Source of the DNA: Bradyrhizobium guangdongense
Lineage (GTDB): Bacteria > Pseudomonadota > Alphaproteobacteria > Rhizobiales > Xanthobacteraceae
Length of the DNA stretch: 64,000 nucleotides
NCBI RefSeq assembly: GCF_004114975.1
Contig: NZ_CP030051.1
Span: forward strand, 558,001-622,000
Direction of reading: 5' to 3'
Notes under the pieces: model-generated
What the model was told of the DNA's origin: nothing
Database searches by the model: none
The model's input: only the letters and a program-made list of their open reading frames with translations
Translations under genes and position numbers: made by a program
Shown: one piece after another, positions 5,156 to 19,767 of the stretch
How positions within the stretch are numbered: position 1 is the stretch's first letter
Layout: every line of letters begins with the position of its first letter

Positions 5156-6235
5156 CTAGGTCGAGACGCCGAATAGCTTGCGCACTGCGGGCAGCCATTC
5201 GCCGGTCATGGTGAACTCGAGCCCGATTCGAGCGCCGCAGGCAATCGCCAGCATGGTGATCGGGGCCGAAACGGCGAGCGTCGAGAAAGCGGTCAACCCC
5301 TGGCCGATGGTACATCCCATCGACATCACCCCTCCGAAGCCCATCAGAAGCGCGCCGGTCATGTGACGCTTCAATTCGCGCGCGTCGTCGCAGGCTTCCC
5401 AGCGAAAGCCGCGCGCGATCATCGCCGCGGCAAGAGAGCCCGCCACGACACCGGCAACGGAGCCGATGCCGAAATTCAGCCGCGCCCCCGAGAAGGTGGC
5501 GATGTAGAGGATGGTGTCGCCGAGCGGCGCGACGAAAGTGAGGGAGGAGACGCGGGTGGGATCGAATTCGTCGTCGGCCAGCCACCCCGTCGCGAACCAG
5601 CCGAATGCGACCGCGCCGCCGACCGCGAGGCCCGAGGCGAAAAGCCGAGGCGACCGGATCAGCCGGCCGTCTGCAACGGCCCAGACGGCAAGCGCAACGG
5701 CGATCGATACGACAAGGAGTGCACGCGTCGCGCTGCCCGCGCCCAGGAGCGAGATCAAGGTCTGGTTGGTGCCTTCCGCCAGCCGCAGCGACAACGGTTC
5801 GATCAGCATCACGCGCAACATCCCTGTGATGCCTCGCATGGTCGCGAGCGCAGAGAGGCCGAGCACGAGAAAGACCACGATGGCTCGCAAGTCGCCGCCG
5901 CCGACGCGAACCAGCGTGCCGAAACCGCAGGTGCCGACCAGGGCCATACCGACGCCGAACATCAGCCCGCCGATGATCGCGCCGCCGAGTCCGATCGACG
6001 ACGTCAAATAGATCGACCGCGACAGATCGACGACGCCGAATTCAGCAAGAGCCTGGGTCGCAAGCAGCGCCACGGCCGCGGCCAGCGCAAAGGACTTCAG
6101 CCGGCGCAAATCCGACCCGAAAAACGCGTCCTCCAGCATCGCCAATGTGCAAAATCGCCCTGCGCGGCCGGCGACACCGAGCACGGCCCCGGCGGCAAGC
6201 CCGCATGCGAATGCTATGGTCGACGGATTCAGCAT
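5156..6235 (-). CDS. YeeE/YedE-family sulfur-compound permease
   Basis: A 359-residue inner-membrane protein with about nine to ten hydrophobic helices and two related halves. The conserved cysteine motifs are GRAGRFCTLAM near residue 28, VGTCGFGTLVRVGGGDLRA in the middle of the first half, and SMGCTIGQGL near residue 307. These match the YeeE/YedE (DUF395, sulf_transp) family, some members of which import thiosulfate by relaying it between cysteines. It is the last gene of the leftward group soxS, repressor, permease. It probably moves thiosulfate or another reduced sulfur species for the Sox system or for assimilation. The substrate is inferred from family and context. Confidence 0.85.
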   Translation of the reverse strand: MLNPSTIAFACGLAAGAVLGVAGRAGRFCTLAMLEDAFFGSDLRRLKSFALAAAVALLATQALAEFGVVDLSRSIYLTSSIGLGGAIIGGLMFGVGMALVGTCGFGTLVRVGGGDLRAIVVFLVLGLSALATMRGITGMLRVMLIEPLSLRLAEGTNQTLISLLGAGSATRALLVVSIAVALAVWAVADGRLIRSPRLFASGLAVGGAVAFGWFATGWLADDEFDPTRVSSLTFVAPLGDTILYIATFSGARLNFGIGSVAGVVAGSLAAAMIARGFRWEACDDARELKRHMTGALLMGFGGVMSMGCTIGQGLTAFSTLAVSAPITMLAIACGARIGLEFTMTGEWLPAVRKLFGVST

Positions 6236-6307: not shown

Positions 6308-6658
6308 TTACCGGCGCCGGCGGCGCACCGGCTCGCAGAACACGTCGTAGACAGCAGTCAAAATCTTGCGGACGTCCTCGCTGGCGAGGCTGTAGTAGAT
6401 CGTCTTGCCGTCGCGGCGCGTGGTGACGAGCCGGTCGAGCCGGAGCCGCGCGAGCTGCTGGGAGACGGTCGACTGCCGCTCGCCGAGGAACTGCTCGAGC
6501 TCGGTCACCGACTTCTCGCCCTCGGCGAGGATGCAAAGCAGCAGCAACCGGGATTCATGCGACAGCGCCTTCAGCATGTCGCTCGCCTCGCGCGCCTTCT
6601 CGATCATCTGCTCGAGTTCGGCGGATCCCTCGATCTCCTTCAGCTTTGGCAACGGCAT
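6308..6658 (-). CDS. ArsR-family repressor, BigR/SqrR-like persulfide sensor
   Basis: A 116-residue winged-helix DNA-binding protein. The recognition region is TELEQFLGERQSTVSQQLARLRLDRLV and the wing is TTRRDGKTIYYSL. It has just two cysteines, C42 (RLLLLCILAEG) and C108 (YDVFCEP). Those are the numbers I recall for the redox pair of Xylella BigR, and they match the spacing in Rhodobacter SqrR, repressors that release DNA when the pair is bridged by persulfide or polysulfide. It lies between soxS and the YeeE-type permease, all leftward, so it is expected to control the sox operons and itself. The leading Glu/Lys helix of about 25 residues is also typical of this subgroup. Confidence 0.87.
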   Translation of the reverse strand: MPLPKLKEIEGSAELEQMIEKAREASDMLKALSHESRLLLLCILAEGEKSVTELEQFLGERQSTVSQQLARLRLDRLVTTRRDGKTIYYSLASEDVRKILTAVYDVFCEPVRRRRR

Positions 6659-6706: not shown

Positions 6707-7060
6707 CTATCCGGAACTGGTCAGGATCCGGTTCAGCAGGCCGAAGAAGAAGGCATCCCCCGGATAGCCGCGGATGCGGCCGATCTCCCGGCCCTCTTGT
6801 AGCACGACGAAGCTCGGCGTGAAGGCACCCGGATCGATTCCGGAGAGATCGGCGGGCAGGGGACGGTTGAGGTCGACACGGCGCAGCGGCGCGGCCTGAC
6901 CCTCCTCCGTCCTGCCGTAGATCGGCGCGATCTCGGCGTCGAAGCGCGCGCACCACACGCAGCCGGCTCGTTCGAACATGACGAGTTCGGCGGCGCGCGA
7001 CCGCGCCGCGGGCAGCGCGAGCATGATAGCGACCACGAGCAATCCGACGATGCGGCTCAT
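6707..7060 (-). CDS. soxS: Periplasmic thioredoxin-like protein SoxS
   Basis: A 117-residue exported thiol-disulfide protein. Residues 1-23 form a signal peptide (GLLVVAIMLALPAARSRA). The redox centre is CVWC at residues 34-37 and the cis-proline loop is in AFTPSFVVLQEG. In known sox clusters SoxS, fed with electrons by SoxV, keeps the SoxYZ carrier cysteine reduced. The divergent neighbour at 7135 is soxV, which supports this. It heads a leftward group with the ArsR repressor and the permease. The shared 74-base gap to soxV holds the promoters and an AT-rich motif also found before soxX. Confidence 0.88.
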   Translation of the reverse strand: MSRIVGLLVVAIMLALPAARSRAAELVMFERAGCVWCARFDAEIAPIYGRTEEGQAAPLRRVDLNRPLPADLSGIDPGAFTPSFVVLQEGREIGRIRGYPGDAFFFGLLNRILTSSG

Positions 7061-7134: not shown

Positions 7135-7866
7135 ATGAGCTTGGACGTCACGCTTGGTGCGGCCTTTGTGGCGGGCCTGTTGTCGTTTCTGTCGCCCTGC
7201 ATCCTGCCGCTCGTTCCGCCGTTCCTCTGCTACATGGCGGGCGTCTCCGTCACGGATCTCTCGGATGGTCGGCCCGAACTGCGGCCGCGCATCCTGGCTT
7301 CGGCGCTTGCCTTCGTGGCCGGCTTTTCCCTGGTTTTCGTCGCGCTGGGCTCGACGGCATCGATTGCGGGACGTTTCGTCTCTGCTCATCTTTCGACGCT
7401 CGGTATCGTCGCAGGCGTCCTGATCGTCGTGATGGGCCTGCATTTTCTCGGCGTGCTCAGGATTCCACTGCTCTATCGCAGCGCCACGCTGCAGATCGAG
7501 AGCCGGCCGGCCGGCGTTGCGGGCGCCTTCGTCATGGGGCTGGCGTTCGCGTTCGGCTGGACGCCCTGCGCCGGGCCCATCCTCGCCGCAGTCCTGCTCA
7601 TGGCGGGGTCCGAGGACACCACCGCGAGAGGGGCTCTCTTGCTGCTTGCCTATTCGGTCGGCACCGGCATTCCCTTTCTTGTCGCCGCCGCCTTCACCGG
7701 CCGCTTCATCGGAGCGCTCGGCCGCGTGCGCCGGCATTTGGGCATCATCGAGAAGACAATGGGCGCCTTTCTGGTCGCGACGGGATTGATGTTCCTGACC
7801 GGGCTCATGCCTATGGTCTCGGAATGGCTGCTGGAGCATTTCCCGGCGCTGACCAGCATCGGTTGA
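7135..7866 (+). CDS. soxV: CcdA/DsbD-type thiol transporter SoxV
   Basis: A 243-residue inner-membrane protein with six hydrophobic helices that carries reducing power from cytoplasmic thioredoxin to the periplasm. The two redox cysteines are C22 in FLSPCILPLVPP and C145 in FGWTPCAGP, both in the conserved CcdA contexts. The length is that of CcdA/SoxV. Its position divergent from soxS and ahead of soxW and the structural sox genes makes SoxV the natural call, although general cytochrome c biogenesis CcdA has the same architecture. The stop is two bases from the end of the opposing unknown gene. Confidence 0.88.
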   Translation: MSLDVTLGAAFVAGLLSFLSPCILPLVPPFLCYMAGVSVTDLSDGRPELRPRILASALAFVAGFSLVFVALGSTASIAGRFVSAHLSTLGIVAGVLIVVMGLHFLGVLRIPLLYRSATLQIESRPAGVAGAFVMGLAFAFGWTPCAGPILAAVLLMAGSEDTTARGALLLLAYSVGTGIPFLVAAAFTGRFIGALGRVRRHLGIIEKTMGAFLVATGLMFLTGLMPMVSEWLLEHFPALTSIG

Positions 7867-7867
7867 T

Positions 7868-8587
7868 CTAGCCGAAACGGAAATCCAGCAGTTGAGCGTA
7901 AGATTGCAGCTCGATCAGATAACGATGCACGAGCGGTCCGTCACCCGCCATCGCCGCATGAGCGATCTCGCTGCTGCTGGCGATCGCGCCGTCGATCAGC
8001 CGCCGGAACTCGTTTCTCTCAGCGATGTCCGCCCGCGCCCAATCGTTGCAACGCTGCAGACGATCGCGCAGTACACCTGCCGCGGCGACGGTATCCCCGG
8101 CGTGTGCAGGTGCGGGCTGCTCGCCGAACCGAGTGGCTGCGATGCGCAACTTTTCCATGGCGGGCGCGATCTCGAAGACGCAGTCGCCGAGATCGTAGAG
8201 GCCGGACTGGCGTCGAAGCTGATGGAATGATTGGCGGAGCAGTTGCAGCTCGCGGCCGGCGGCGACATTGTCTCCGCTGTCCAGTGCGTGCGCGACGGCT
8301 CCAAGCCGCTCGCCGCCCCGGCTGAGAAATTCCGTCAGGGGTGCCGCCGTGTGAGGCGACGGGAAACTCGATGCATTTGTCTCGAGCCGCTTCCAGGCTG
8401 TCACCGCCTCCTCGGTCTCCATCTGCGCCAATGCGGTGTTTCCGGTTCGCGCGTAGCTCGCGGCCGTGCGCAGATTGGCCATGACAGGCTCCATCGCCGA
8501 CGCGAAATCCTTCGCGCCGTCGCTCTCGGCGCCCAACGCGAGCGTGCTCCAGGCCAGCAACGCCAAAAGCGCGATGATGCAGCGCAA
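7868..8587 (-). CDS. Unknown exported helical protein in the sox locus
   Basis: A 239-residue protein with a signal peptide (residues 1-20, MRCIIALLALLAWSTLALGA). The rest reads as an internal duplication of an alpha-helical bundle. Half one begins near residue 30 with SAMEPVMANLRTAASYA and half two near 140 with IAPAMEKLRIAATRFG. Each half ends in long amphipathic helices. There is no CxxCH, so it is not a cytochrome, though the four-helix look recalls cytochrome c-prime folds. Cysteines C136 and C180 are both in half two and could bridge or carry sulfur. It faces soxV (convergent) and shares a promoter gap with soxW (divergent). I do not recognise the family. A Sox accessory role is inferred from position only. 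Confidence 0.75.
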   Translation of the reverse strand: MRCIIALLALLAWSTLALGAESDGAKDFASAMEPVMANLRTAASYARTGNTALAQMETEEAVTAWKRLETNASSFPSPHTAAPLTEFLSRGGERLGAVAHALDSGDNVAAGRELQLLRQSFHQLRRQSGLYDLGDCVFEIAPAMEKLRIAATRFGEQPAPAHAGDTVAAAGVLRDRLQRCNDWARADIAERNEFRRLIDGAIASSSEIAHAAMAGDGPLVHRYLIELQSYAQLLDFRFG

Positions 8588-9385: not shown

Positions 9386-9829
9386 ATGCGGCGCTCGCTT
9401 GCTGCTGCGTTTGCTTTATGTCTGATGGTCGGAACCGTGTACGCGCAGGAGCCGATCAAGCTCGACGTCGTCAACGATTCCCTGCCGAAATCCCTGACCA
9501 GTTCGCCCGGCAATGCCGACGCCGGCAAGAAGGTGTTCCTGACCCGCACGCTCGGCAATTGCCTCGCCTGCCACCAGGTCACCAGCCTGAAATCCGAGGA
9601 ATTCCACGGCGAGTTTGGTCCGTCGCTCGACGGCGTCGCCGGCCGCTACAGCGAGGCGCAACTGCGCCTCATCGTCGCCGACCCCAAGCGCATCTTCACC
9701 GATACGGTCATGCCGGCGTTCTTCAAGAACGACGGCTTGAGCCGGGTGCGCCCGGAGTTCGTCGGCAAATCCATTCTGACGGCCTCGCAGGTCGAGGATG
9801 TCATCGCTTTTCTCAAAACGCTGAACTGA
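9386..9829 (+). CDS. soxX: Sulfur-oxidation c-type cytochrome SoxX
   Basis: A 147-residue exported monohaem cytochrome c. The signal peptide covers residues 1-20 (to VYA). The haem site is CLACH at 59-63 and the likely distal methionine is M109 in DTVMPAFF. With SoxA it forms SoxXA, which joins thiosulfate oxidatively to the cysteine of SoxY. It is the first gene of soxXYZABCD, and soxY follows after an 18-base gap carrying a GGCGAGGAGG ribosome site. The length and the GPSLDGVAGRYSEAQL segment are typical of SoxX. Confidence 0.95.
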   Translation: MRRSLAAAFALCLMVGTVYAQEPIKLDVVNDSLPKSLTSSPGNADAGKKVFLTRTLGNCLACHQVTSLKSEEFHGEFGPSLDGVAGRYSEAQLRLIVADPKRIFTDTVMPAFFKNDGLSRVRPEFVGKSILTASQVEDVIAFLKTLN

Positions 9830-9847
9830 CGGCGAGGAGGATCAGGA

Positions 9848-10300
9848 ATGAAAGCCATCAATCGACGGCAGGCATTTGCGCTTGGGGGCGGCTTCGTCAT
9901 GCTGACCCTGATGCCCATGGCGGCCGATGCCGAAGTGACGAACGACGCGGCGAAGTGGATCGAGAAGTTCACCGGCGGCAAGACGCCTGCCAAGGGCAAG
10001 ATTTCGCTCGATCTGCCCGAGATCGCGGAGAACGGCAACACCGTGCCGCTGTCGATCAACATCGAGAGCCCGATGACCGCGGAGTCCTACGTCAAGGACG
10101 TCATGATCATCGCGGACGGCAACCCGAATGCGGGCGTCGCGTCGCTGTCGTTCACGCCGCTGTCGGGCAAGGCGGAAGCATCGATCCGCATCCGGCTCGC
10201 GACCACGCAGAACGTGGTGGCGATCGCGAAGATGAGCGACGGATCGCTGTTTACGGAGCAGAAGACCGTGAAGGTCACCATCGGCGGCTGCGGCGGCTAA
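9848..10300 (+). CDS. soxY: Sulfur carrier protein SoxY
   Basis: A 150-residue periplasmic protein ending in the diagnostic swinging arm GGCGG (residues 146-150), whose C148 carries thiosulfate and sulfane sulfur through the Sox cycle. The N-terminus NRRQAFALGGGFVMLTL is a twin-arginine signal, so it probably travels folded with SoxZ, which lacks a signal. The beta-sandwich middle part is typical. soxZ starts 18 bases later after a GGAGAG ribosome site. There is a single SoxY here, unlike genomes with several copies. Confidence 0.96.
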   Translation: MKAINRRQAFALGGGFVMLTLMPMAADAEVTNDAAKWIEKFTGGKTPAKGKISLDLPEIAENGNTVPLSINIESPMTAESYVKDVMIIADGNPNAGVASLSFTPLSGKAEASIRIRLATTQNVVAIAKMSDGSLFTEQKTVKVTIGGCGG

Positions 10301-10318
10301 GGGCTCAGGAGAGAAAAG

Positions 10319-10645
10319 ATGGCAGACAAACCGCGCATCAAGCTTCCGAAGGAAGCGGCCAAGGGCGAGGTCATCCAGATCAAGACCCTGGTTTCGCACG
10401 TCATGGAATCCGGCCAGCGCAAGGACGCGCAGGGCAAGACCATTCCGCGCAAGATCATCAACAAGTTCGCCTGCGAGTTCAACGGCAAACCCGTTTTCTC
10501 CTGCGTGCTGGAGCCGGCGATCTCGGCCAATCCCTACATCCAGTTCGATGCCAAGGTGGACGAGGCCGGGACGTTCAAGTTCTCCTGGACCGACGACGAC
10601 GGCACGGTGATCGCAGCCGAAGAGAAGATTGCGCTCAAGGCCTGA
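10319..10645 (+). CDS. soxZ: SoxZ, partner of the SoxY sulfur carrier
   Basis: A 108-residue immunoglobulin-like protein with no signal peptide of its own, exported by riding on the Tat substrate SoxY. IKLPKEAAKGEVIQIKTLVSHVMESGQR and the C-terminal GTFKFSWTDDDGTV are family hallmarks. It forms the SoxYZ heterodimer, the platform to which sulfur intermediates are bound. It lies between soxY and soxA at operon spacing. The stop at 10643-10645 is 28 bases before the soxA ATG. Confidence 0.95.
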   Translation: MADKPRIKLPKEAAKGEVIQIKTLVSHVMESGQRKDAQGKTIPRKIINKFACEFNGKPVFSCVLEPAISANPYIQFDAKVDEAGTFKFSWTDDDGTVIAAEEKIALKA

Positions 10646-10673
10646 TGCGCGCGGCGCTTCGAGGGAGGGACGG

Positions 10674-11495
10674 ATGCTGCAACGATATGTTGGGCTCGCT
10701 GCCGCGGCCGTCGTGTTCGCGTCGGTCGTGACCTGCGCCTCCGCGCAGGAAGCCGAACGCAAGGGCATCCCGGCGCCGCCCGGGCACGTGTTCAAGACCA
10801 TCATCTCCGGCTACGAATTCCGCAGTAAGGAGACCCGTGCGCTACAGGACGACGACCTCGAAAATCCGGGCTTTCTGGCCGTCGAGCGAGCCGCCGACGT
10901 CTGGAAGAAAGCCGAGGGTAGTGAGGGCAAGTCCTGCATGAGCTGCCATGGCGAGGCCGAGACCAGCATGAAGGGCGTCGGCGCCGCCATGCCGAAATGG
11001 GACGACAAGCTGAAGAAGCCGGTCAATCTCGAACAGCGCATCAACATCTGCCGCACCGAGCACATGAAGGCGGAGCCCTGGAAATTCAAATCCCAGGAAC
11101 TGACCGACATGACGACGTTCGTGCGCTATCAGTCGCACGGCATGCCGGTGACGGTGAAGGCCGACGGCCCGATGTCGCCATGGTTCGAGCGCGGCAAGCA
11201 GATCTACTACACGCGGTTCGGCCAGCTCGATCTCGCCTGCGCCTCCTGTCACGAGCGCAACAACGGCAAGTTCATGCGCGCGGATTTTCTAAGCCAGGGC
11301 CAGACCAACGGCTTTCCGACCTACCGGCTGCGCGACCAGCGCCTGGTGCCGCTGCACGAGCGATTTGAGGGTTGCATGTTCGACGTGCGCGCCGAGCCGT
11401 TCAAGCCCTTGTCGGACGAGTTCCTTGCGCTCGAGCTCTACGTCGCCTGGCGGGGGATCGGATTGCCGGTCGAGACCCCCTCAGTGCGCAACTGA
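10674..11495 (+). CDS. soxA: Dihaem cytochrome SoxA (L-cysteine S-thiosulfotransferase)
   Basis: A 273-residue exported subunit of SoxXA. The signal peptide ends near residue 24 (CASA). Two haem sites are present, CMSCH at 88-92 and CASCH at 189-193, so this is the dihaem class. The catalytic cysteine is C234 in RFEGCMFDVRAEPF, which forms a persulfide haem ligand in known SoxA. The ATG at 10674 follows GAGGGAGG at good spacing. An in-frame TTG at 10629 would overlap soxZ and add a non-signal N-terminus, so it is rejected. SoxXA conjugates thiosulfate to SoxY. Confidence 0.96.
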   Translation: MLQRYVGLAAAAVVFASVVTCASAQEAERKGIPAPPGHVFKTIISGYEFRSKETRALQDDDLENPGFLAVERAADVWKKAEGSEGKSCMSCHGEAETSMKGVGAAMPKWDDKLKKPVNLEQRINICRTEHMKAEPWKFKSQELTDMTTFVRYQSHGMPVTVKADGPMSPWFERGKQIYYTRFGQLDLACASCHERNNGKFMRADFLSQGQTNGFPTYRLRDQRLVPLHERFEGCMFDVRAEPFKPLSDEFLALELYVAWRGIGLPVETPSVRN

Positions 11496-11522
11496 AGCGA
11501 TGAGCTTGCAGGAGTATTTCGC

Positions 11523-13214
11523 ATGATCTCACGGCGCGAATTCATCCAGGTGGCTGCGGCAACGGCGGCACTCTCGGCCGGTGTCGGCTCCGGCCTGGCC
11601 CGGGCGGTTGCCCAGCAGCGCCTGACCGAGAAGGAATTGCTGGCGTTCGAGCCGCTCGGCAACGTCACGCTGGTGCATGTGACCGACATTCACGGTCAGC
11701 TCATGCCGCTCTATTTCCGCGAACCGTCGACCAATCTCGGCGTCGGCGAAGCGAAGGGGCTGCCGCCGCACGTCACCGGAAAGGAGTTCCTCGCCCGCTT
11801 CGGTATCGCCCCGGGCTCGTCGGCGGCCTACGCTCTGACGTCGGAGGATTTCGAGGCGCTGGCCAAGAGCTACGGCCGGATCGGCGGTCTCGATCGTGCC
11901 GCCACCGTGATCAAGGCGATCCGCGCCGAGCGCGGCGACAAGGTCGCGCTGCTCGACGGCGGGGATACCTGGCAGGGTTCGTGGTCATCGCTGAAGACGC
12001 GCGGCCAGGACATGATCGACTGCATGGCGCTGCTCAAGCCCGACGCCATGACCGGCCATTGGGAGTTCACTTACGGCACCGAGCGCGTCAAGCAGGCGAT
12101 CGAGGGACTCGGCTTCCCGTTTCTCGGCCTCAACATCCGCGACGCCGAATGGAACGAGGCGGCGTTCGATGCCTCGACCATGATCGAGCGCGGGGGCGTC
12201 AAGATCGCGGTGCTCGGCCAGGCCTTCCCCTATACGCCGGTCGCCAATCCGCGCTGGATGATTCCGAACTGGTCGTTTGGCGTGCGCGAGGAGGATGTCC
12301 AGGCGCAGGTCGACAAGGCTCGCAAGAGCGGCGCGCAGCTCGTCGTGCTGCTCTCGCACAATGGCTTCGACGTCGATCGCAAGCTCGCAAACCGGGTCAA
12401 GGGCATCGATGTCATCCTGACCGGTCACACCCATGACGCGCTGCCGGAGGCGGTCAAGGTCGGTAAGACCCTGCTGATCGCATCGGGCTCGTCCGGCAAG
12501 TTCGTCTCGCGGCTCGATCTCGACGTCCGCGACGGCGAGGTCAAGGCTTTCCGGTACAAGCTCATCCCGCTGTTTTCCGACGTGATCACGGCGGATGCGG
12601 AGATGGCGGCCAAGATCGCCGAGGTGCGCAAGCCCTTCGCGTCGGAGCTGTCAAAGGTGCTCGGCAAGACGGAGTCGCTGCTGTACCGGCGCGGCAATTT
12701 CAACGGCACGTTCGATGATCTGATCTGCCAGGCGCTGATGCAGGAGCGTGATGCCGAGATCGCGCTGTCGCCGGGCTTCCGCTGGGGCACCAGCGTGCTG
12801 CCGGGGCAGGACATCACCTTCGAGGACGTCACCAACGCAACCGCGATCACCTATCCCGCAGTCTACCGCATGGGCATGACGGGTGCGCGATTAAAGGAGA
12901 TCGTCGAGGACGTCGCCGACAATCTCTTCAACGTCGATCCCTATTATCAGCAGGGCGGCGACATGGTGCGGATCGGCGGCCTGTCCTATGCGATCGATGT
13001 CACGAAGCCGCAAGGCAGCCGCATCTCGGACATGCAGATGCTCAAGACCGGCGCGCCGATCGACCCCGCCAGGGAATATCAGGTCGCCGGCTGGGCCAGC
13101 GTCAACGAAGGAACGGAAGGGCCGCCAATCTGGGAGGTCGTCGGCAATTATCTGACCCGACAGAAGGTGGTTCGCCTCGAACCCAACAGAGCCGTCAAAG
13201 TCACCGGAGCGTAA
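11523..13214 (+). CDS. soxB: Thiosulfohydrolase SoxB
   Basis: A 563-residue periplasmic di-manganese hydrolase that cuts the sulfonate from SoxY-bound thiosulfate as sulfate. The N-terminus SRREFIQVAAATAAL is a Tat signal. The metallophosphoesterase-type metal ligands are visible in order as VTDIHGQ (residues 53-59), LLDGGDTWQGS, GHWEFTYG, LSHNGFDVD and TGHTHDALPE. The C-terminal half is the 5'-nucleotidase-like domain, with DLICQALMQERDAEIALSPGFRWG. The length is normal. It is fifth in the operon, seven bases ahead of soxC. Confidence 0.96.
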   Translation: MISRREFIQVAAATAALSAGVGSGLARAVAQQRLTEKELLAFEPLGNVTLVHVTDIHGQLMPLYFREPSTNLGVGEAKGLPPHVTGKEFLARFGIAPGSSAAYALTSEDFEALAKSYGRIGGLDRAATVIKAIRAERGDKVALLDGGDTWQGSWSSLKTRGQDMIDCMALLKPDAMTGHWEFTYGTERVKQAIEGLGFPFLGLNIRDAEWNEAAFDASTMIERGGVKIAVLGQAFPYTPVANPRWMIPNWSFGVREEDVQAQVDKARKSGAQLVVLLSHNGFDVDRKLANRVKGIDVILTGHTHDALPEAVKVGKTLLIASGSSGKFVSRLDLDVRDGEVKAFRYKLIPLFSDVITADAEMAAKIAEVRKPFASELSKVLGKTESLLYRRGNFNGTFDDLICQALMQERDAEIALSPGFRWGTSVLPGQDITFEDVTNATAITYPAVYRMGMTGARLKEIVEDVADNLFNVDPYYQQGGDMVRIGGLSYAIDVTKPQGSRISDMQMLKTGAPIDPAREYQVAGWASVNEGTEGPPIWEVVGNYLTRQKVVRLEPNRAVKVTGA

Positions 13215-13220
13215 GAAGCG

Positions 13221-14492
13221 ATGTCGAAGATGGACAGTCCCCGGCAATCCCGTCGCAACTTCCTGGCCGCTGGGGCCGGTGTTGCCGCATCGGTGCTCGC
13301 CAAGCCCGCTCTTGCCGGCGCCGGCAATCCGGCCAACCAGCCCCCCAATGTCCCCGAATGGACCAAGGCACTCGGCGAAGGCGTCGCTGTACGCCCCTAT
13401 GGCAAGCCCTCGAAGTTCGAGAAGGACGTCGTCCGGCGCGACGTCGAATGGCTGACCGCCTCGCGCGAATCCTCGGTGAGCTTCACCCCGCTGCATGAGC
13501 TCGAAGGCATCATCACCCCGAACGGGCTCTGCTTCGAGCGGCACCACGGCGGGATCGCCGAGATCGATCCGGCCGATCATCGCCTGATGATCCACGGGAT
13601 GGTCGAGCGTCCGCTGATTTTGACGCTGGAGGAGCTGAAGCGCTATCCGCGCGTCAACCGCATCCACTTCATGGAGTGCGCGGCGAATTCGGGCATGGAG
13701 TGGCGCGGCGCGCAGCTCAATGGCTGCCAGTTCACCCACGGCATGATCCACTGCGTGCAGTACACCGGCGTGTCGCTGCGCACGCTGCTGGAAGAGGCCG
13801 GCGTCAAGACCAACGGCAAGTGGCTGCTGGTCGAGGGCGCCGATGCGGCGGCGATGGATCGCAGCCTGCCGATCGAGAAGGCGCTCGACGACTGCATCAT
13901 CGCCTACAAAATGAATGGCGAGGCGCTCTATCCCGAGCAGGGCTACCCGATGCGGCTCGTGGTGCCGGGCTGGCAGGGCAATCTCTGGGTCAAGTGGCTG
14001 CGCCGCATCAAGGTCGGCGACCAACCCTGGCATACCCGCGAGGAGACGTCGAAATATACGGACCTGCTGCCGAACGGCAAGGCACGCCGGTTCACCTGGT
14101 CGATGGACGCCAAGTCGGTGATCACGAACCCCAGCCCGCAGGCGCCGATCAAGCACGGCAAGGGCTTCACCATCGTGTCGGGTCTCGCCTGGAGCGGCAA
14201 CGGCAAGGTGAAGCGCGTCGACGTGTCGCTCGACGGCGGCCGCAACTGGTGGCCGGCGCGGATCGATGGTCCCGTGCTCGACAAGGCGCTGACGCGCTTC
14301 TACTACGAGTTCGACTGGAACGGCGAGCCGCTGCTGCTGCAATCGCGTGTGCAGGACGAAACCGGATACGTGCAGCCGAGCAAGGCCGAGCTGCGCAAGA
14401 TTCGCGGCGTCAACTCCATCTATCACAACAATGGCATCCAGACCTGGCACGTGCAGGCCAATGGTGAGGTCGAGAATGTCGAAGTCGCTTAA
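13221..14492 (+). CDS. soxC: Sulfane dehydrogenase subunit SoxC (molybdopterin)
   Basis: A 423-residue Tat-exported (SRRNFLAAGAGVAASVL) molybdenum enzyme of the sulfite oxidase family. The molybdenum ligand is C153 in FMECAANSG, and the C-terminal dimerisation domain starts near residue 310 (GKGFTIVSGLAWSGNGKVKRVDVSLDGG). With SoxD it oxidises the sulfane sulfur left on SoxY, allowing full oxidation to sulfate with no sulfur globules. Its presence predicts complete thiosulfate oxidation. soxD begins inside its last 17 bases, so the two are translationally coupled. Confidence 0.95.
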   Translation: MSKMDSPRQSRRNFLAAGAGVAASVLAKPALAGAGNPANQPPNVPEWTKALGEGVAVRPYGKPSKFEKDVVRRDVEWLTASRESSVSFTPLHELEGIITPNGLCFERHHGGIAEIDPADHRLMIHGMVERPLILTLEELKRYPRVNRIHFMECAANSGMEWRGAQLNGCQFTHGMIHCVQYTGVSLRTLLEEAGVKTNGKWLLVEGADAAAMDRSLPIEKALDDCIIAYKMNGEALYPEQGYPMRLVVPGWQGNLWVKWLRRIKVGDQPWHTREETSKYTDLLPNGKARRFTWSMDAKSVITNPSPQAPIKHGKGFTIVSGLAWSGNGKVKRVDVSLDGGRNWWPARIDGPVLDKALTRFYYEFDWNGEPLLLQSRVQDETGYVQPSKAELRKIRGVNSIYHNNGIQTWHVQANGEVENVEVA

Positions 14493-15168
14493 GTTCATTG
14501 CAGCTGCGCTGCTCGCTTGCGGGCTGAGCGCGCCGGCGCTCGCGCAACAGAAGGCGGACGCCAAGGGCGGGCCGCGCTACAACATCGGGCGCGCACCGAC
14601 CGCGGACGAGATCCGCGGCTGGGATATCGACGTGCGGCCCGACGGCCAGGGCCTGCCGGAGGGCAAGGGCACAGTTGCGCAGGGCGAAAAACTGTTCATG
14701 GACAATTGCTCGACCTGCCATGGCGAGTTCGGCGAGGGCAACGGCCGCTGGCCGGTGCTGGCCGGCGGCAAGGGCTCGCTGACCTCAGACAATCCGGTCA
14801 AGACGGTGGGCTCGTACTGGCCCTATGCGTCCACCGTGTTCGACTACGTCCGTCACGCCATGCCCTACGGCAATGCGGAGTCGTTTTCCGTCAACGAATA
14901 CTACGCGCTGGTCGCCTACGTCTTGTACCTGAACGACGTCGTCGCCGACCAGAATTTCGAGTTGACCAACAAGAACCTTGCCACGATCAAGATGCCGAAC
15001 GAGCAAGGCTTTGTGATGGACGACCGCGCCACCAGCGAGAAGTCCTTCTGGCAGAAGGACCCTTGCATGAAGGATTGCGTCGCGCCGGTGAAGATCACCG
15101 GGCGCGCCGCCGTTATCGACGTGACGCCTGAAGACGGCAAGGATGGGAAGCCGAGAGGCGTGGAGTGA
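14476..15168 (+). CDS. soxD: Short single-haem cytochrome subunit SoxD
   Basis: A 230-residue exported cytochrome c, partner of SoxC. The signal peptide covers residues 1-23 (to ALA). The haem site is CSTCH at 78-82, with GEGNGRWPVLAGG after it and a likely methionine ligand in RHAMPYG. Only one CxxCH is present, while Paracoccus SoxD is roughly 380 residues with two haems, so this is the short form missing the C-terminal cytochrome domain. A CMKDC pair near residue 198 could form a disulfide. The ATG at 14476 overlaps soxC by 17 bases. The longer upstream frame has no signal peptide. Confidence 0.93.
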   Translation: MSKSLKFIAAALLACGLSAPALAQQKADAKGGPRYNIGRAPTADEIRGWDIDVRPDGQGLPEGKGTVAQGEKLFMDNCSTCHGEFGEGNGRWPVLAGGKGSLTSDNPVKTVGSYWPYASTVFDYVRHAMPYGNAESFSVNEYYALVAYVLYLNDVVADQNFELTNKNLATIKMPNEQGFVMDDRATSEKSFWQKDPCMKDCVAPVKITGRAAVIDVTPEDGKDGKPRGVE

Positions 15169-15626
15169 GGACCGAAGCAAGCCGCCGTACGGCACTATGC
15201 GCGGCGTTTGCCGCCGGCTTGCTCATCGCAACCTTTCCGGCTTCGTCCCGGGCGGCCGAGCCGCACCGGCTCGCGCTGCAGATCAGCGACGACGACCTGG
15301 TCAAGATGCGCGCGGTCCTCGATGTTGCGGCCAACGTCTCGCGGCACTATTCGGGGCAGGGCGAGGACGTCGAGATCGTGGTCGTCGCTTTCAATGGCGG
15401 CCTCGACATGCTCCTCGATGACCGCTCGCCGGTGAAGGAGCGCCTGTTGAATTTTCTGAAATCGATGCCCAATGTGAGTTTCGTCGCCTGCGGCAACACG
15501 CTGGAGACACTGGCGGCGAAGGAGGGCACGCGACCGCCGCTGATCGAGGGCATCAGCGTCACCCAGGTCGGGGTTGCCGCGCTGATGAATCTGGCGGAAA
15601 AGAACTGGACGATCGTCCGTCCCTGA
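15165..15626 (+). CDS. Exported DsrE-like protein A
   Basis: A 153-residue protein starting at a GTG that overlaps the soxD stop by four bases. Its SRRTALCAAFAAGLLIATF N-terminus is an export signal, possibly Tat. The mature part has the DsrE/DsrF-like pattern HRLALQISDDDLVKMRAVLDVAANV, then VEIVVVAFNGGLDMLL, then MPNVSFVACGNTLETL, where C109 is in the place of the sulfur-binding cysteine of DsrE/TusD-type carriers. Cytoplasmic DsrE proteins relay persulfide sulfur, and an exported form next to SoxCD may relay sulfane sulfur to or from SoxYZ. The role is inferred. A second such gene lies at 16556. Confidence 0.78.
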   Translation: MRTEASRRTALCAAFAAGLLIATFPASSRAAEPHRLALQISDDDLVKMRAVLDVAANVSRHYSGQGEDVEIVVVAFNGGLDMLLDDRSPVKERLLNFLKSMPNVSFVACGNTLETLAAKEGTRPPLIEGISVTQVGVAALMNLAEKNWTIVRP

Positions 15627-15641
15627 GGAGGGGGCCCGCCG

Positions 15642-16547
15642 ATGCGATGGTTGATGGGAATGGCTGTGTTGCTCGCGCTGGCGGTGCCTGCCGGCGCCAC
15701 CGAGCAGGAGCTCGAACTGTCGATCGACGGCCGGACGGCACTCGCGACGCTGCGCACGCCAGCGTCGATGGGACCCGACACGCCGCTCATCGTGATGACC
15801 CACGGCACGCTCGCCCACAAGGACATGGAAGTCATCCAGGGCGTTGCCAAGGCGCTGGAACAGCGCGGCATCGCCTCGCTCGCCCATACGCTGTCGCTTG
15901 GGCTCGACCGGCGCAAGGGAATGTATGACTGCGCCGTGCGGCACGACTACGTCGCTGCCGAGGCGGATGCGGAGATCGCTGCCTGGGTGAACAGGGCCAA
16001 GGGGATGTCGCGGCTCGTCTTCACGTTCGGCCATTCTCGCGGCGGCAACCAGGTTGCGCGCTATCTCGCGGCGGGCGAAGCCCCGTCGGTGGTTGGCGCG
16101 GTGCTCTTGGCACCGGTCACCGCAAAGGCGGAGGGCGATTTGCGCGCCTCCTATGCGCGGACTTATGGTAAGCCGCTCGAGCCGTTGCTGGAGCAGGCAA
16201 CGAAGGCCGTCGCAGCGGGCCGCGGCGGAGAATGGATGGACGTGCCCGGCTTCATCTATTGCCGCAACGCCGTGGTGACCGCGCGCGCCTTCACGTCCTT
16301 CTATGCCGCCGATCCCAGCCAGGACACCGCAGCGCTGGTGTCGCGCATGAAGCTGCCGGTGCTGGTGCTCGCCGCCACAAAGGATACGGTCGTTCCCGAT
16401 GTGATTGCGTCCTTCGCTCCGCTTGCCGATTCGAGCGGCGGCCGGGTACAACTCGACAAGATCGACGGTGCCGATCATTTCTTCCGCGACCTCTTCGCGG
16501 AAGACGTCGCCGATCGCATCGCTGAATTCATCAAGCAGACACGATAG
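15642..16547 (+). CDS. Exported alpha/beta hydrolase in the sox operon
   Basis: A 301-residue serine hydrolase with a signal peptide (MRWLMGMAVLLALAVPAGAT). The oxyanion strand is IVMTHGTLAHKD, the nucleophile is S132 in FGHSRGGNQ, and the acid and base are probably in ATKDTVVPD and DGADHFFRD. The fold resembles dienelactone-hydrolase-like esterases. No substrate is evident. It is 15 bases after one DsrE-like gene and 8 bases before the other, so the three form one transcript with soxCD. A thioester or acyl-sulfur substrate in the periplasm is conceivable but unproven. Two to three cysteines are present and none is in a redox pair. Confidence 0.8.
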   Translation: MRWLMGMAVLLALAVPAGATEQELELSIDGRTALATLRTPASMGPDTPLIVMTHGTLAHKDMEVIQGVAKALEQRGIASLAHTLSLGLDRRKGMYDCAVRHDYVAAEADAEIAAWVNRAKGMSRLVFTFGHSRGGNQVARYLAAGEAPSVVGAVLLAPVTAKAEGDLRASYARTYGKPLEPLLEQATKAVAAGRGGEWMDVPGFIYCRNAVVTARAFTSFYAADPSQDTAALVSRMKLPVLVLAATKDTVVPDVIASFAPLADSSGGRVQLDKIDGADHFFRDLFAEDVADRIAEFIKQTR

Positions 16548-16555
16548 GAGGGACC

Positions 16556-16999
16556 ATGCAGCGCCGATCCATGCTTCGCGCCAGCCTTGCCGGACTATTT
16601 GGCGCTCTTGGCATGCGCGAGGCGTCTGCAGCGACGGAAACGCCCGCGCGGCAGCGCGTCGTCTACCACCTCGCCGACGCCGACCGTGTCGTCTTCGTTC
16701 TGGGTAACCTCCAGAATCATGTCGACGGCGTCGGTGGACCGGGCAAGGCCGACATCAGGCTCGTCGTGCATGGGCCGGCGCTGCGCGCCTTTCACGCGCT
16801 CGCCGCCGAGGATCACACCGTTGCGATGATGACAAAGCTCGTCGATGCCGGCGTCGGATTTGATGCCTGCGCCAACACGATGAAGGCGCAGGGCGTCAAG
16901 CTCGACGACCTCACGCCCGGCTTCGTGGTGGCCGAGAAGGGCGGCGTGGTGCGGCTCGCCGAGCTGCAGCAGCAGGGATATGCCTATCTCCGCCCCTGA
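16556..16999 (+). CDS. Exported DsrE-like protein B
   Basis: A 147-residue protein with an N-terminal RRSMLRASLAGLFGALGM Tat-like signal. The mature region RVVYHLADADRVVFVLGNLQNHVDGVGG then DIRLVVHGPALRAF matches the DsrE-like fold. The single strategic cysteine is C105 in VGFDACANTMKAQG, equivalent to C109 of the upstream DsrE-like protein. It starts eight bases after the hydrolase gene with a GGAGGG ribosome site. Together, proteins A and B could act as a two-member periplasmic sulfur relay. Function is inferred from fold and location. The stop is followed by an 85-base gap before soxT. Confidence 0.78.
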   Translation: MQRRSMLRASLAGLFGALGMREASAATETPARQRVVYHLADADRVVFVLGNLQNHVDGVGGPGKADIRLVVHGPALRAFHALAAEDHTVAMMTKLVDAGVGFDACANTMKAQGVKLDDLTPGFVVAEKGGVVRLAELQQQGYAYLRP

Positions 17000-17084: not shown

Positions 17085-18185
17085 GTGCTGACGACACTCA
17101 TCGATTTCGTGGGGGAAGACCTGTCGTCATGGCTGGGCGGCCTCCTGGTCGGCGGCCTGTTCGGATTCTTCGCCCAGCGCAGCCGCTTCTGCCTGCGCGC
17201 CGCTGCCGTCGAATTCTCCCGCGGTGAGGGCGGACCGCGCCTGGCGGTCTGGCTCCTGACTTTTGCCGCGGCGCTCGTGGGCACACAGGCGCTGGTTGCG
17301 GTCGGTTGGCTCGACGTGTCCGAGGCGCGCCAGCTCGCGCAGCAGGGCAGCATCTCGGGCGCGCTGGTCGGCGGCGTGATGTTCGGCTGCGGCATGATCC
17401 TCGCTCGCGGCTGCGCCAGCCGGCTGCTCGTGCTCTCGGCCAACGGCAATCTCAGGGCGCTCCTGTCGGGTCTGGTGTTCGCGGTCACTGCGCAGGCTTC
17501 GTATCGCGGCCTGTTGTCACCGGCGCGCGAGTGGGTGACCAATCTCTGGTTGGTCGATGGCGGCCCGTCGCGCGATATCATGGCGGTGTTCGGCGGTGGC
17601 ACGCTCGAGAAGCTCGCCTTTGGCGGACTATGGCTGTTCGCGGGGCTCGTCTTCGCTTTTCGCAGTCAGTTGCGGCGCCGGCTGATCCTCGCCGCGCTGG
17701 CCACTGGCCTGGCCGTCGTCGCCGGCTGGTTCTTCACCTATCAACTCGCGCAGGCTTCCTTCGCCCCGGTGCCGCTGAAGAGTCTCACCTTCAGCGGCCC
17801 GTCGGCCGAATTGCTGATGCTGGTCCTGAACAGCTCGCAACTCCGGCTCGGCTTCGATCTCGGCATCATTCCCGGCGTGTTCCTCGGCTCGTTCGTTGCC
17901 GCGACAAGCGCGCATGAGCTGAAACTGGAAGGATTTTCGGACGGGCTGGGCATGCGCCGCTATCTGCTCGGCGCGGTGCTGATGGGATTTGGCGCCATGC
18001 TTGCGGGCGGCTGCGCGGTCGGCGCGGGGGTGACCGGTGCCTCGGTGTTCGCGCTGACCGCCTGGATCGTGCTCGGCGGGATGTGGTTGGGGGCGGGCCT
18101 CACCGATCTGCTCGTCGACCGCGGCGGCATGCCGCAGCCGCAGCAGGCGAGTCCGACCGCCTCGAGTGCTGACGCCGTACTTTAG
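17085..18185 (+). CDS. soxT: SoxT-type YeeE/YedE permease
   Basis: A 366-residue inner-membrane protein with two YeeE/YedE (DUF395) halves. The key motifs are FAQRSRFCLRAAAVEF near residue 30, GMILARGCASRLLVL near 107 and MLAGGCAVGAGVTG near 310. Proteins like this encoded in sox clusters are named SoxT and are thought to carry thiosulfate or a signal sulfur compound into the cytoplasm for the sox repressor. A GTG start at 17085 is used and no ATG is better placed. It is a full-length counterpart to the permease at 5156, so the locus has two full and one split member of this family. The transport direction is unknown. Confidence 0.82.
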   Translation: MLTTLIDFVGEDLSSWLGGLLVGGLFGFFAQRSRFCLRAAAVEFSRGEGGPRLAVWLLTFAAALVGTQALVAVGWLDVSEARQLAQQGSISGALVGGVMFGCGMILARGCASRLLVLSANGNLRALLSGLVFAVTAQASYRGLLSPAREWVTNLWLVDGGPSRDIMAVFGGGTLEKLAFGGLWLFAGLVFAFRSQLRRRLILAALATGLAVVAGWFFTYQLAQASFAPVPLKSLTFSGPSAELLMLVLNSSQLRLGFDLGIIPGVFLGSFVAATSAHELKLEGFSDGLGMRRYLLGAVLMGFGAMLAGGCAVGAGVTGASVFALTAWIVLGGMWLGAGLTDLLVDRGGMPQPQQASPTASSADAVL

Positions 18186-18193
18186 AATTTACT

Positions 18194-18213
18194 AAATTAC
18201 AATTTTTGAATAT
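18194..18213. promoter_or_regulatory. AT-rich repeat before the split permease genes
   Basis: The gap after soxT contains AAATTA, eight bases, GAATAT (18194-18213), a degenerate copy of the ATATTC-N8-GAATAT repeat before soxW, in an otherwise GC-rich context. It could be a further operator for the sox-locus ArsR regulators and would let the split permease pair be expressed separately from soxT. Confidence 0.35.
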
Positions 18214-18278
18214 GATTTTCGTTGCCGGTCGATCGTGCCGTGAGAGCGCGGCGCGGGCCGCTGTCGGGGAAAACGCAC

Positions 18279-18830
18279 ATGACCACCATGACGGAAAGCT
18301 ATGTTCGCGAAGCTCCGCGTACCGCGCGGATCGACTGGTCGCCCTATCTCGTCGGCGCCGGTATCGGACTTCTGAGCTGGATCGCTTTTGCGGTGTTCGG
18401 CGATCCGCTGGGCGTTACCACCGCCTATTCGCGCATCGCTTCACTGTTCGCAGCCCCGGTCATTGGCCCGGAGGCGGTTGCCCAGAACTCCTACTGGAAG
18501 AGCATGCCGCTGAAGTGGGACTACGGCGTCTGGTTCCTCGTAGGCCTTCCCGCAGGGGCGTTCATTGCCGCGGTGATGTCGGGCACGTGGCGGCTGGAGC
18601 TCGTGCCGGAGGTCTGGAAGGAGCGGTTCGGACCATCGATCGCCAAGCGCTTTGTCGGCGCATTCCTCGGTGGCGCCGTGATCATGTACGGCGCACGCCT
18701 CGCCGGCGGCTGCACCAGCGGACACGGCATCTCCGGCGGGTTGCAGCTCGCGGTGTCGAGCTGGCTGTTCCTCGCAGTGATGTTCGCCACCGGGCTCGGT
18801 ATTTCCGCGCTCATGTTCCGCAAGCGCTGA
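18279..18830 (+). CDS. YeeE/YedE half-permease, first subunit
   Basis: A 183-residue membrane protein equal to half of a YeeE/YedE permease. After a 20-residue soluble start it has about four to five helices. The conserved YGARLAGGCTSGHGISGG, with its single cysteine motif, is near residues 145-162. Pairs of such half-size proteins (sometimes called PmpA/PmpB) are found near persulfide and sulfide genes and often with BigR-like regulators. The second half follows 14 bases downstream, so a heterodimeric permease is expected. The ATG at 18279 gives a sensible N-terminus. The ORF extends upstream to 18222 but would place AT-rich promoter-like DNA inside the gene. Confidence 0.83.
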   Translation: MTTMTESYVREAPRTARIDWSPYLVGAGIGLLSWIAFAVFGDPLGVTTAYSRIASLFAAPVIGPEAVAQNSYWKSMPLKWDYGVWFLVGLPAGAFIAAVMSGTWRLELVPEVWKERFGPSIAKRFVGAFLGGAVIMYGARLAGGCTSGHGISGGLQLAVSSWLFLAVMFATGLGISALMFRKR

Positions 18831-18844
18831 GAGGAGAAACAGAG

Positions 18845-19402
18845 ATGACCGCTATGATGACGATCCTCGGCCCGCTCGTGATGGGCGCAGCCTTCGGCTT
18901 CCTGCTGCAGCGTGGCAAGGTGACGAGCTGCAACGTGATCGAGAATCAGTTTCGTCTGCGCGACTTCACCGTGCTGAAGGTGATGGGCACCGCGATCGTG
19001 GTCGGCGGCATCGGCGTGCTGCTGCTCGTCGATACCGGCAACACGAAGTACTACGTCAAGGATGCCAATTTGCTGGCGGTCGCGCTTGGTGCCGCGCTGT
19101 TCGGCGTCGGCATGGTGGTCTACGGCTACTGTCCGGGAACGGCGCTTGGTGCCATCGCAACCGGCAGTGTCCATGCCCTGGTCGGTGCGCTCGGTATGAT
19201 CGCCGGCGCAATCCTCTATGCGCTGAGCTTCGACTGGTTGAAGGCCCACGTGCTCAATGTCTGGGCATTGGGCAAGGTTCGCCTTCCGGACGTGACGAAC
19301 ATCCCCGATATCGCCTGGTTCGCCGCGCTGGCAGTCGGCGCTGCGCTGTTCTTCTGGTGGGTCGAGTCCAGGGAAGCAGCAGACGCGCAGCTAGTTAGCT
19401 GA
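18845..19402 (+). CDS. YeeE/YedE half-permease, second subunit
   Basis: A 185-residue membrane protein, partner of the preceding gene (14-base gap with a GAGAGGAG ribosome site). It holds the complementary YeeE/YedE motifs LLQRGKVTSCNVIENQFRL near residue 25 and VVYGYCPGTALGAIATG near residue 97, both with a conserved cysteine. The two halves together reproduce the motif set of the full-length permeases at 5156 and 17085. The likely cargo is a reduced sulfur species. It is the last structural gene of the rightward sulfur block, and the opposing ArsR gene follows 29 bases later. Confidence 0.83.
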   Translation: MTAMMTILGPLVMGAAFGFLLQRGKVTSCNVIENQFRLRDFTVLKVMGTAIVVGGIGVLLLVDTGNTKYYVKDANLLAVALGAALFGVGMVVYGYCPGTALGAIATGSVHALVGALGMIAGAILYALSFDWLKAHVLNVWALGKVRLPDVTNIPDIAWFAALAVGAALFFWWVESREAADAQLVS

Positions 19403-19431
19403 ACGACGCCTCCCGCTCAGCGGGCGGAAGG

Positions 19432-19767
19432 CTATCGTTTGCGAGGTCCGCAGAACAGCCGGTGCAGGGTCGAAACCAGCTCTTCGACCCGACGGTCGGC
19501 GATGCGGTACCACACCGTTTGACTGTCGCGCCGGGCGGCGACGATACCCTCCGCCTTCAGTTTGGCGAGGTGTTGCGACAGTGCCGAGGCGGATAGGCCC
19601 ACCTCCTCGGCGAGCGCCCCGGCATTTGCTTCGCCATATTCGACCAGCTTGCAGACGATGAGCAGGCGATGTTCGTTGGCGAACATGCGCATCAATGCGG
19701 CCACATCTCTGGCTTGTCGTTCCAGCGCGCGGGTGTTTGGTCTGCCCATGACGGCGTTCAACAGCAC
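19432..19767 (-). CDS. Second two-cysteine ArsR-family repressor
   Basis: A 111-residue winged-helix repressor, possibly starting at M7 (MGRPNTRALERQ), which is preferred biologically but not provable here. The recognition helix is in LSASALSQHLAKLKAEGIV and the wing is ARRDSQTVWYRI. It has only two cysteines, C39 (RLLIVCKLVEYG) and C106 (LHRLFCGP), in the same two helices as the C42/C108 pair of the repressor at 6308, with spacing 67 instead of 66. That makes it a second candidate persulfide sensor closing the sulfur island. It converges with the split permease genes, so it is transcribed alone, from the gap toward dusA. Confidence 0.85.
   Translation of the reverse strand: MLLNAVMGRPNTRALERQARDVAALMRMFANEHRLLIVCKLVEYGEANAGALAEEVGLSASALSQHLAKLKAEGIVAARRDSQTVWYRIADRRVEELVSTLHRLFCGPRKR

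Follow-up and report, generated by a model that had tools for sequence, protein, structure and literature searches.

Probably exported DsrE-type proteins and a lineage-specific hydrolase linked to soxCD in Bradyrhizobium guangdongense

The window analysed here is a stretch of 64,000 nucleotides from the 8.4 Mb genome of Bradyrhizobium guangdongense (G000:C1:558001-622000). It carries a sulfur-oxidation (sox) locus in which soxD is followed by a trio of genes encoding two small DsrE-type proteins, DsrE1 and DsrE2, and an alpha/beta hydrolase between them. The gene order is soxT-soxR-soxS on the reverse strand, soxV, a gene for a small exported protein on the reverse strand, soxW, soxXYZABCD, DsrE1, hydrolase, DsrE2, YeeE and two half-size YeeE genes. 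All three open reading frames of the trio proved real, and proteins and order were conserved in relatives. This agrees with an earlier note on this DNA, which had described two small exported DsrE-like proteins bracketing an exported alpha/beta hydrolase after soxCD. That note also considered all of them translationally linked to soxD. The claim holds for DsrE1, as the soxD stop codon (TGA) overlaps the DsrE1 start as GTGA, but not for the following genes, where gaps of 15 nucleotides (DsrE1-hydrolase) and 8 nucleotides (hydrolase-DsrE2) were found, each with a GGAGG-like site. The gap between DsrE2 and YeeE is 85 nucleotides. Between positions 15000 and 17300, no sigma-70-like site was detected, which is uninformative given that 0.2 were expected in shuffled sequences, and three terminator-like sites were detected (1.2 expected), two of them on the forward strand inside the hydrolase and DsrE2 genes. 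The promoter and terminator scan neither favours nor disfavours one transcript, and an Rfam scan returned nothing useful for the trio.

DsrE2 was assigned to the DsrE family by PF02635 (34.5 bits, cut-off 22.7) and matched the Protein Data Bank (PDB) entry 1l1s at an E value of 5.4e-9 by sequence only. For DsrE1, in contrast, no Pfam or NCBIfam model matched, and PF02635 gave no match at E≤10. Its relatives in G141, G383 and G162 scored 16.9, 17.4 and 21.1 bits with PF02635, below the cut-off, and the soxB2-linked DsrE had no PF02635 match at E≤0.01. DsrE1 nevertheless resembled MTH1491 by phmmer (E 2.7e-5), and its AlphaFold model (predicted local distance difference test, pLDDT, 79.8; predicted template modelling score, pTM, 0.70) matched MTH1491 in Foldseek with template modelling scores of 0.64/0.86. 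All seven PDB matches of the model at E≤0.001 (among them 1l1s, 2pd2, 2qs7, 3pnx and 2hy5) were DsrE-like, with no other protein kind among them; they comprised MTH1491 (1l1s), ST0148 (2pd2) together with a cage constructed from a DsrE-like protein, SSO1126, Swol_2425 and DsrEFH. Because of the sequence and fold matches to MTH1491, we assigned DsrE1 to the DsrE type. The silence of Pfam and NCBIfam might have indicated a mis-called, non-DsrE reading frame; this was rejected by the MTH1491 match, the fold and profile A7. The label "DsrE-like" thus stands for DsrE2 through PF02635 and for DsrE1 through MTH1491, without a family model.

Both proteins carry a conserved cysteine at the C-x-N position of the DsrE/DsrF-like family, Cys109 in the ACGNT motif of DsrE1 and Cys105 in the ACANT motif of DsrE2. 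Each was invariant in 121/121 rows (the query plus the best 120 of 386 matches for DsrE1 and of 1243 for DsrE2), although both alignments consist mostly of near relatives. Cys105 is the only cysteine of DsrE2. Cys109 is the sole cysteine of mature DsrE1, as the second one, C12, falls within the signal region and lacks conservation (14/112 rows), and the single cysteine at the sulfur-binding position named in the earlier note was therefore confirmed for both proteins. Furthermore, a wider alignment of 19 divergent exported DsrEs, whose identity to DsrE1 goes as low as 21%, showed the family-position cysteine in 19/19 rows. In a midpoint-rooted tree with several long end branches and one row (G326_sox_2) cut at the wrong cysteine, DsrE1 and DsrE2 fell into two separate subclades. 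Both main subclades include sox-linked members, so sox linkage apparently arose more than once.

The N-termini of all three proteins looked like signal peptides by eye, and a hydropathy script concurred for the two DsrEs. DsrE1 (SRRTAL) and DsrE2 (QRRSMLR) each have a twin-arginine pair that ≥98% of the ungapped rows retain; these pairs resemble the twin-arginine translocation (Tat) motif. The hydrolase looks like a protein of Sec-type export. Judged by eye and by a crude hydropathy heuristic, on which the export calls rest, DsrE1 and DsrE2 are likely exported rather than cytoplasmic. Unconserved cysteines or a lack of export had been named beforehand as findings that would speak against the proposal; the cysteines are conserved, and export appears likely.

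The hydrolase matched PF12146 (Hydrolase_4) at 37.2 bits, over a cut-off of 27, as well as Abhydrolase_1. Its AlphaFold model (pLDDT 91.9) had feruloyl and cinnamoyl esterases as best folds; the thioesterase DcsB also ranked within the top 50. The triad S132, D248 and H279 was invariant in 26/26 aligned relatives of alignment A4, which leaves out two serine-less relatives of A1 (L095 and L096). From Pfam, fold and the complete Ser-Asp-His triad, the protein is predicted to be an alpha/beta serine hydrolase. Cys97 and Cys207 were both present in 18/19 rows and both absent in 1/19, a joint pattern that would fit a disulfide between them in the exported protein. The two serine-less relatives (L095:6461-7405 and L096:9192-10154), which are distant ones, have lost the catalytic serine (GHGRGG, GVGRGG) and kept both cysteines; they share their gene neighbours, and the two genomes belong to one genus. 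They are possibly pseudo-hydrolases.

To place the trio among other sox loci, a census proposed in the earlier note, we used the hydrolase to find 26 named loci, 25 from Bradyrhizobium and one from a metagenome-assembled genome named Bradyrhizobiaceae; nearly all named best matches of the trio proteins and named related loci were from Bradyrhizobium. soxD, DsrE1 and the hydrolase were present in 26/26 loci, and all four genes, with DsrE2, in 25/26. The locus without DsrE2 is L074; the match was split over two frames in L072 (DsrE1) and L077 (DsrE2), and L064 had about 600 extra bases before DsrE2. The trio was whole in G326 and G421 too. Strong hydrolase matches occurred in 4/149 genomes of the family sample (G000, the genome of the window, and G421, G326 and G383), and among the nine own-genus genomes listed in that sample only in G000 and G421. 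Variant arrangements were soxXYZA-hydrolase-DsrE1 in G383, soxXYZABCD-hydrolase with no DsrE in G165, and, in G154 and G234, a hydrolase and a DsrE close to soxXYZAB but on the other strand, the DsrE of G234 being broken, so that the hydrolase was sox-linked in these four genomes besides the Bradyrhizobium-type loci and G326. In our local census it was found at 5/95 loci. The trio is no one-genome oddity, as 25/26 named loci carry it after soxD, and no general sox feature, given the hydrolase count in the local census and the few strong matches in the family sample. The DsrE-hydrolase-DsrE trio is a lineage-restricted part, and the hydrolase is linked to sox in some lineages and not in others.

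Exported DsrEs recurred more widely. In the class sample (289 genomes), SoxB was found in 28 genomes, a DsrE1-like protein in 20 and both in 16. In the phylum sample (397 Pseudomonadota genomes), SoxB was found in 73, an exported-type DsrE (E≤1e-8) in 67 and both in 49, that is, in 49/73 SoxB-positive vs 18/324 SoxB-negative genomes; with the own genus left out, the figures were 38/62 vs 18/324 (Fisher p 1e-22). At the level of loci, an exported single-cysteine DsrE lay within approximately 8 kb of soxB at 25/75 SoxB loci of the phylum sample, 10/29 of the class sample and 32/95 of their union. The linkage reaches beyond one lineage, with 12/62 phylum-sample loci outside the own genus. Further, 29 exported-type DsrE genes lay at the 75 SoxB loci vs 113 such genes in the 397 genomes; since the 75 regions cover approximately 1.3 Mb of well over 1 Gb (estimated from listed genome sizes), the chance expectation is far below one gene. 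The nearest matched upstream same-strand gene of the 36 union DsrEs was soxB for 16 and soxD for 7; others lay after soxZ or between SoxW and CcdA. The motif cysteine and a hydrophobic N-terminus were present in 36/38 DsrE matches at SoxB loci, two weak ones included. The view of a periplasmic DsrE at a sox locus as a local oddity is accordingly not supported; what is lineage-specific is the trio. In G312 (L253) and G410 (L265), tandem pairs of exported single-cysteine DsrEs were found near sox with no hydrolase, which suggests that such pairs may act together.

The DsrE census counted matches scoring >60 bits. This excluded G626, whose 52-bit match has neither the motif nor a signal-like segment, and a 40-bit, frame-broken fragment in G234. 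Profile A7 has 19 rows, 7 of them from genes away from sox loci; profile A2, used for the class search, combines the window protein with four close homologues and five sox-locus proteins; and one row (L093) of alignment A3 is a wrong-frame reading frame. As the genome searches scored the best few candidates per genome, the counts are lower bounds. Locus stretches end at contig ends, and gaps in the association analysis are those between matched pieces, not genes.

The genome of the window has a second sox locus, soxXYZAB (L159, G000:C1:7279000-7296000), whose SoxB shares 48% identity with the first and where an exported DsrE starts 2 nucleotides after the soxB stop. In the phylum sample, 10/10 further genomes of the own genus have a SoxB followed by DsrE; soxCD lies upstream in 3 of these. 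A further exported DsrE-type protein (L160, G000:C1:801311-801745, reverse strand) has MCASS replacing ACxNT, with no sox match nearby and a partial hydrolase-profile match approximately 2.7 kb away. The only two PF02635 matches of the genome look exported from their sequences, DrsE_2 (PF13686) had no match in the genome, and the single TusA match, at C1:6191441, lies well over 1 Mb from the locus. Because of this lack of DrsE_2 and of a non-exported PF02635 protein, and the distant TusA, a Dsr- or sHdr-type relay in the cytoplasm is not evident from the genome sequence, with Hdr and DsrC outside the search.

The features of the locus are listed in Table 1. SoxX, SoxY, SoxA, SoxB and SoxC exceeded NCBIfam cut-offs (SoxZ was outside that scan), and no SoxD model matched soxD; soxT, soxR, soxS, soxV, soxW, soxZ and soxD were named by eye, order and similarity. 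The small exported protein encoded against the sox operon had no Pfam match and was found at 46-90% identity in 25/26 named loci; the locus without a match is a contig beginning inside soxB. Positions 17085-19767 hold three YeeE proteins and then, on the reverse strand, an ArsR-type regulator recognised by eye. Together they form another transporter-regulator unit in addition to soxT-soxR upstream.

Table 1 Features of the sox locus and the adjoining trio (window positions)
Feature	Position	Strand	Basis or remark
soxT (YeeE)	5156-6235	-	by eye, order, similarity
soxR (ArsR)	6308-6658	-	by eye, order, similarity
soxS-like thioredoxin	6707-7060	-	by eye, order, similarity
soxV (CcdA)	7135-7866	+	by eye, order, similarity
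small exported protein	7868-8587	-	between soxV and soxW, against sox operon
soxX, soxY, soxZ, soxA, soxB, soxC (in order)	9386..14492	+	NCBIfam; soxZ by position and size
soxD (cytochrome c, likely ATG start 14476), last of soxXYZABCD	14476..15168	+	position and same place in relatives
DsrE1, 153 aa, GTG start, Tat-like N-terminus, Cys109 in ACGNT	15165..15626	+	DsrE fold
hydrolase (alpha/beta), apparently exported, 301 aa, Ser132-Asp248-His279, Cys97 and Cys207	15642..16547	+	Pfam, fold
DsrE2, 147 aa, Tat-like N-terminus, Cys105 in ACANT	16556..16999	+	PF02635
full-length YeeE/SoxT-like sulfur transporter, directly 3' of trio	17085..18185	+	PF04143, E 5e-51
half-size YeeE-family protein	18222-18830	+	part of 18222..19402
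second half-size YeeE-family protein, within longer open reading frame, end 19402	18222..19402 region	+	

We tentatively favour the reading that the exported DsrEs are periplasmic sulfane-sulfur carriers accessory to SoxYZ, with the hydrolase as an optional addition. It builds on the DsrE fold of DsrE1 and family of DsrE2, the conserved cysteines, the likely export and the sox linkage. DsrE1 and DsrE2 would be related to the DsrE/TusD sulfur carriers of the cytoplasm but work in the periplasm, each binding one sulfane sulfur as a persulfide on its conserved cysteine and swapping it with the swinging-arm cysteine of SoxY, or with polysulfide arising from SoxY. Sulfur on the DsrE cysteine and exchange with SoxY are the most likely steps, because fold and cysteine are those of the family to which DsrE of Allochromatium vinosum belongs and because of location and linkage. 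The direction of transfer we infer to be onward to a periplasmic acceptor. Were this the adjoining YeeE/SoxT transporter, the sulfur would be imported or serve SoxR signalling; were it the SoxS/SoxV/SoxW thiol system, the sulfur would be released. With its conserved triad the hydrolase, absent at most sox loci, would be a catalytically competent serine esterase or thioesterase, stabilised by a disulfide and acting together with this side branch. The earlier note is partly supported: operon structure, conservation and genome-wide co-occurrence tie two apparently exported DsrE-type proteins with an invariant cysteine to sox, and these might form the relay or release system for SoxYZ-bound sulfur that it suggested.

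A more specific version, possible though somewhat doubtful, is an exported DsrE relay that takes sulfane sulfur from SoxYZ to SoxT/YeeE or to thiol-reducing proteins, for which Bradyrhizobium would have a DsrE1-DsrE2 pair and a dedicated hydrolase. If true, the relay would supply the link that leads from SoxYZ to sulfur import or SoxR signalling, and it would be a periplasmic mirror of the cytoplasmic DsrE/TusA relays. Sox is viewed as a periplasmic cycle on one carrier, SoxYZ; a second, DsrE-type carrier, if it works beside SoxYZ, would explain how sulfane sulfur exits SoxYZ to be imported, to signal or in the course of repair. The available portion of PMC11582611 leaves open the route of sulfur from SoxYZ to SoxT and proposes DsbA or SoxS.

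Several results weigh against DsrEs as carriers accessory to SoxYZ. The Fisher tests take no account of phylogeny, and the DsrE query, in part derived from sox-linked proteins, may favour sox-linked matches. Exported-type DsrEs occur in the 18 SoxB-negative genomes too, and one DsrE2-type paralogue of the genome of the window sits alone, not sox-linked. No exported-type DsrE above the census threshold was found within approximately 8 kb at 50/75 SoxB loci of the phylum sample, and 19/19 loci of family f20, which has the most SoxB genomes in the sample, were without one, some f20 genomes carrying one elsewhere. An exported DsrE is no required Sox part, because those 50 loci are without it. The hydrolase, for its part, lay away from sox or in a genome with no SoxB in 4/8 class-sample genomes with a strong match (strong meaning E<1e-37 only, reached by 8 of the 30 genomes with any match): hydrolase and sox genes were on different contigs in G162 and G242, and SoxB was not found in G236 and G022. 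Finally, at the 95 loci, where seven locus features were tested, uncorrected for multiplicity, DsrE had no significant association with SoxC (p 0.66), SoxH (p 0.79), SoxW (p 0.52) or YeeE (p 1.0; with the own genus left out, 14/19 vs 31/63, p 0.07), and a fixed SoxT partnership is unsupported because of the last of these. In the same tests, SoxF was rarer at DsrE-positive loci (5/32 vs 30/63, p 0.003; outside the own genus p 0.12), as was CcdA (9/32 vs 34/63, p 0.03; with the own genus left out, 7/19 vs 34/63, p 0.30). A fixed partnership of DsrE with SoxT, SoxH, SoxW, SoxC or SoxF as a general rule was rejected on these loci. The exported DsrE is an optional accessory whose partner the linkage data leave unfixed.

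Sulfur handed over by the exported DsrEs might serve signalling only, passing from SoxYZ to SoxT/YeeE solely for SoxR induction with no bulk oxidation. The YeeE gene directly after the trio and soxT-soxR upstream would fit such a branch, SoxT is thought to signal in Alphaproteobacteria with complete Sox (PMC11582611, available portion), and a DsrE adjoins a YeeE gene in G041, G611, G312, G421a and G000a. We nevertheless consider it rather unlikely: 16/32 DsrE-positive loci, including Bradyrhizobium soxXYZAB-DsrE loci, had no YeeE match on the stretch, and the DsrE-YeeE association was non-significant. Improbable, in our view, is a repair branch, in which the DsrEs would clear the SoxY arm of wrong adducts or excess sulfane sulfur, with SoxS/SoxV/SoxW providing the reduction, and SoxYZ would thereby stay active, while the hydrolase takes off another dead-end adduct. 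DsrE does lie between a SoxW-like thioredoxin and CcdA in G162, G242 and G001, and Paracoccus SoxS binds SoxY according to the accessible part of PMC11582611, but DsrE was not associated with SoxW, and CcdA was rarer at DsrE-positive loci. We give equally little credence to the view that DsrE and hydrolase are operon passengers serving general periplasmic thiol or ester chemistry with no Sox-specific role. Both families also occur outside sox loci, the hydrolase being at only 5/95 census loci, whereas the strong co-occurrence and adjacency with SoxB, seen in both DsrE subclades and at differing positions, and the retention of the trio after soxD in 25/26 Bradyrhizobium-type loci argue against mere passengers. 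Should the DsrEs act as carriers accessory to SoxYZ, they may be an overlooked part of sulfur handling outside the cell membrane.

Bradyrhizobium diazoefficiens uses its sox locus I, soxTRSVWXYZABCD, for growth on thiosulfate, according to the text available of PMC5748708; the order is as in the window, where the trio is added. The same text names no gene after soxD, and the B. diazoefficiens entry Blr3519 (P0129) shares 87% identity with the window hydrolase. In the literature searched, including the available text of PMC5748708, we found no mutant of the trio genes and nothing on a periplasmic DsrE or blr3519, an earlier Bradyrhizobium study cited by PMC5748708 being outside the search. A DsrE in a sox cluster is on record for two Sulfitobacter type strains, where orf2 is flanked by soxB and soxC and is called a "DsrE family protein", the available text of PMC11034169 giving no function, export statement or hydrolase for it; beyond orf2, no DsrE gene in a sox cluster was found in the sources at hand, subscription literature being largely outside the search. 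Feruloyl, cinnamoyl and chlorogenic acid esterases and the thioesterase DcsB are among the best sequence or fold matches of the hydrolase, at 14-21% identity. Unlike those esterases, it has its own conserved motifs THGTLAHKD, GMYDC, GHSRGGNQ and GFIYC and two conserved cysteines.

Among DsrE proteins, the closest solved structures by sequence (profile A7, E 1e-26 and 1.3e-19) and by fold are the archaeal stand-alone proteins MTH1491 (1l1s) and ST0148 (2pd2), entries named hypothetical proteins, in which the cysteine of a C-x-N-(S/T) stretch aligns with the conserved column. They have 113 and 108 residues, and the matches begin at residue 5 or 2, so that they have no N-terminal extension. The DsrE2-DsrE5 groups and the DsrE3C of sHdr systems are DsrE homologues linked to sulfur oxidation with an active-site cysteine (PMC4175335; DsrE3C, PMC11582611; both in part), and the accessible part of PMC4175335 prints five groups, which it associates with genes for Dsr, Hdr, lipoate, lipoamide dehydrogenase and SQR. 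Compared with the systems described in the sources at hand, the DsrE type of the window appears to be new in being exported and linked to Sox, and it comes with a hydrolase specific to the lineage. DsrEFH of A. vinosum and TusBCD share the DsrE fold (2hy5_C, E 6.2e-4) and an essential sulfur-carrying active-site cysteine, and Cys78 of the cytoplasmic A. vinosum DsrE binds sulfur and transfers it onward (PMC3397948, available part). DsrEFH is a cytoplasmic heterohexamer that passes sulfur to DsrC, whereas the DsrEs of the window are apparently exported and encoded beside soxCD, with no TusA in the locus.

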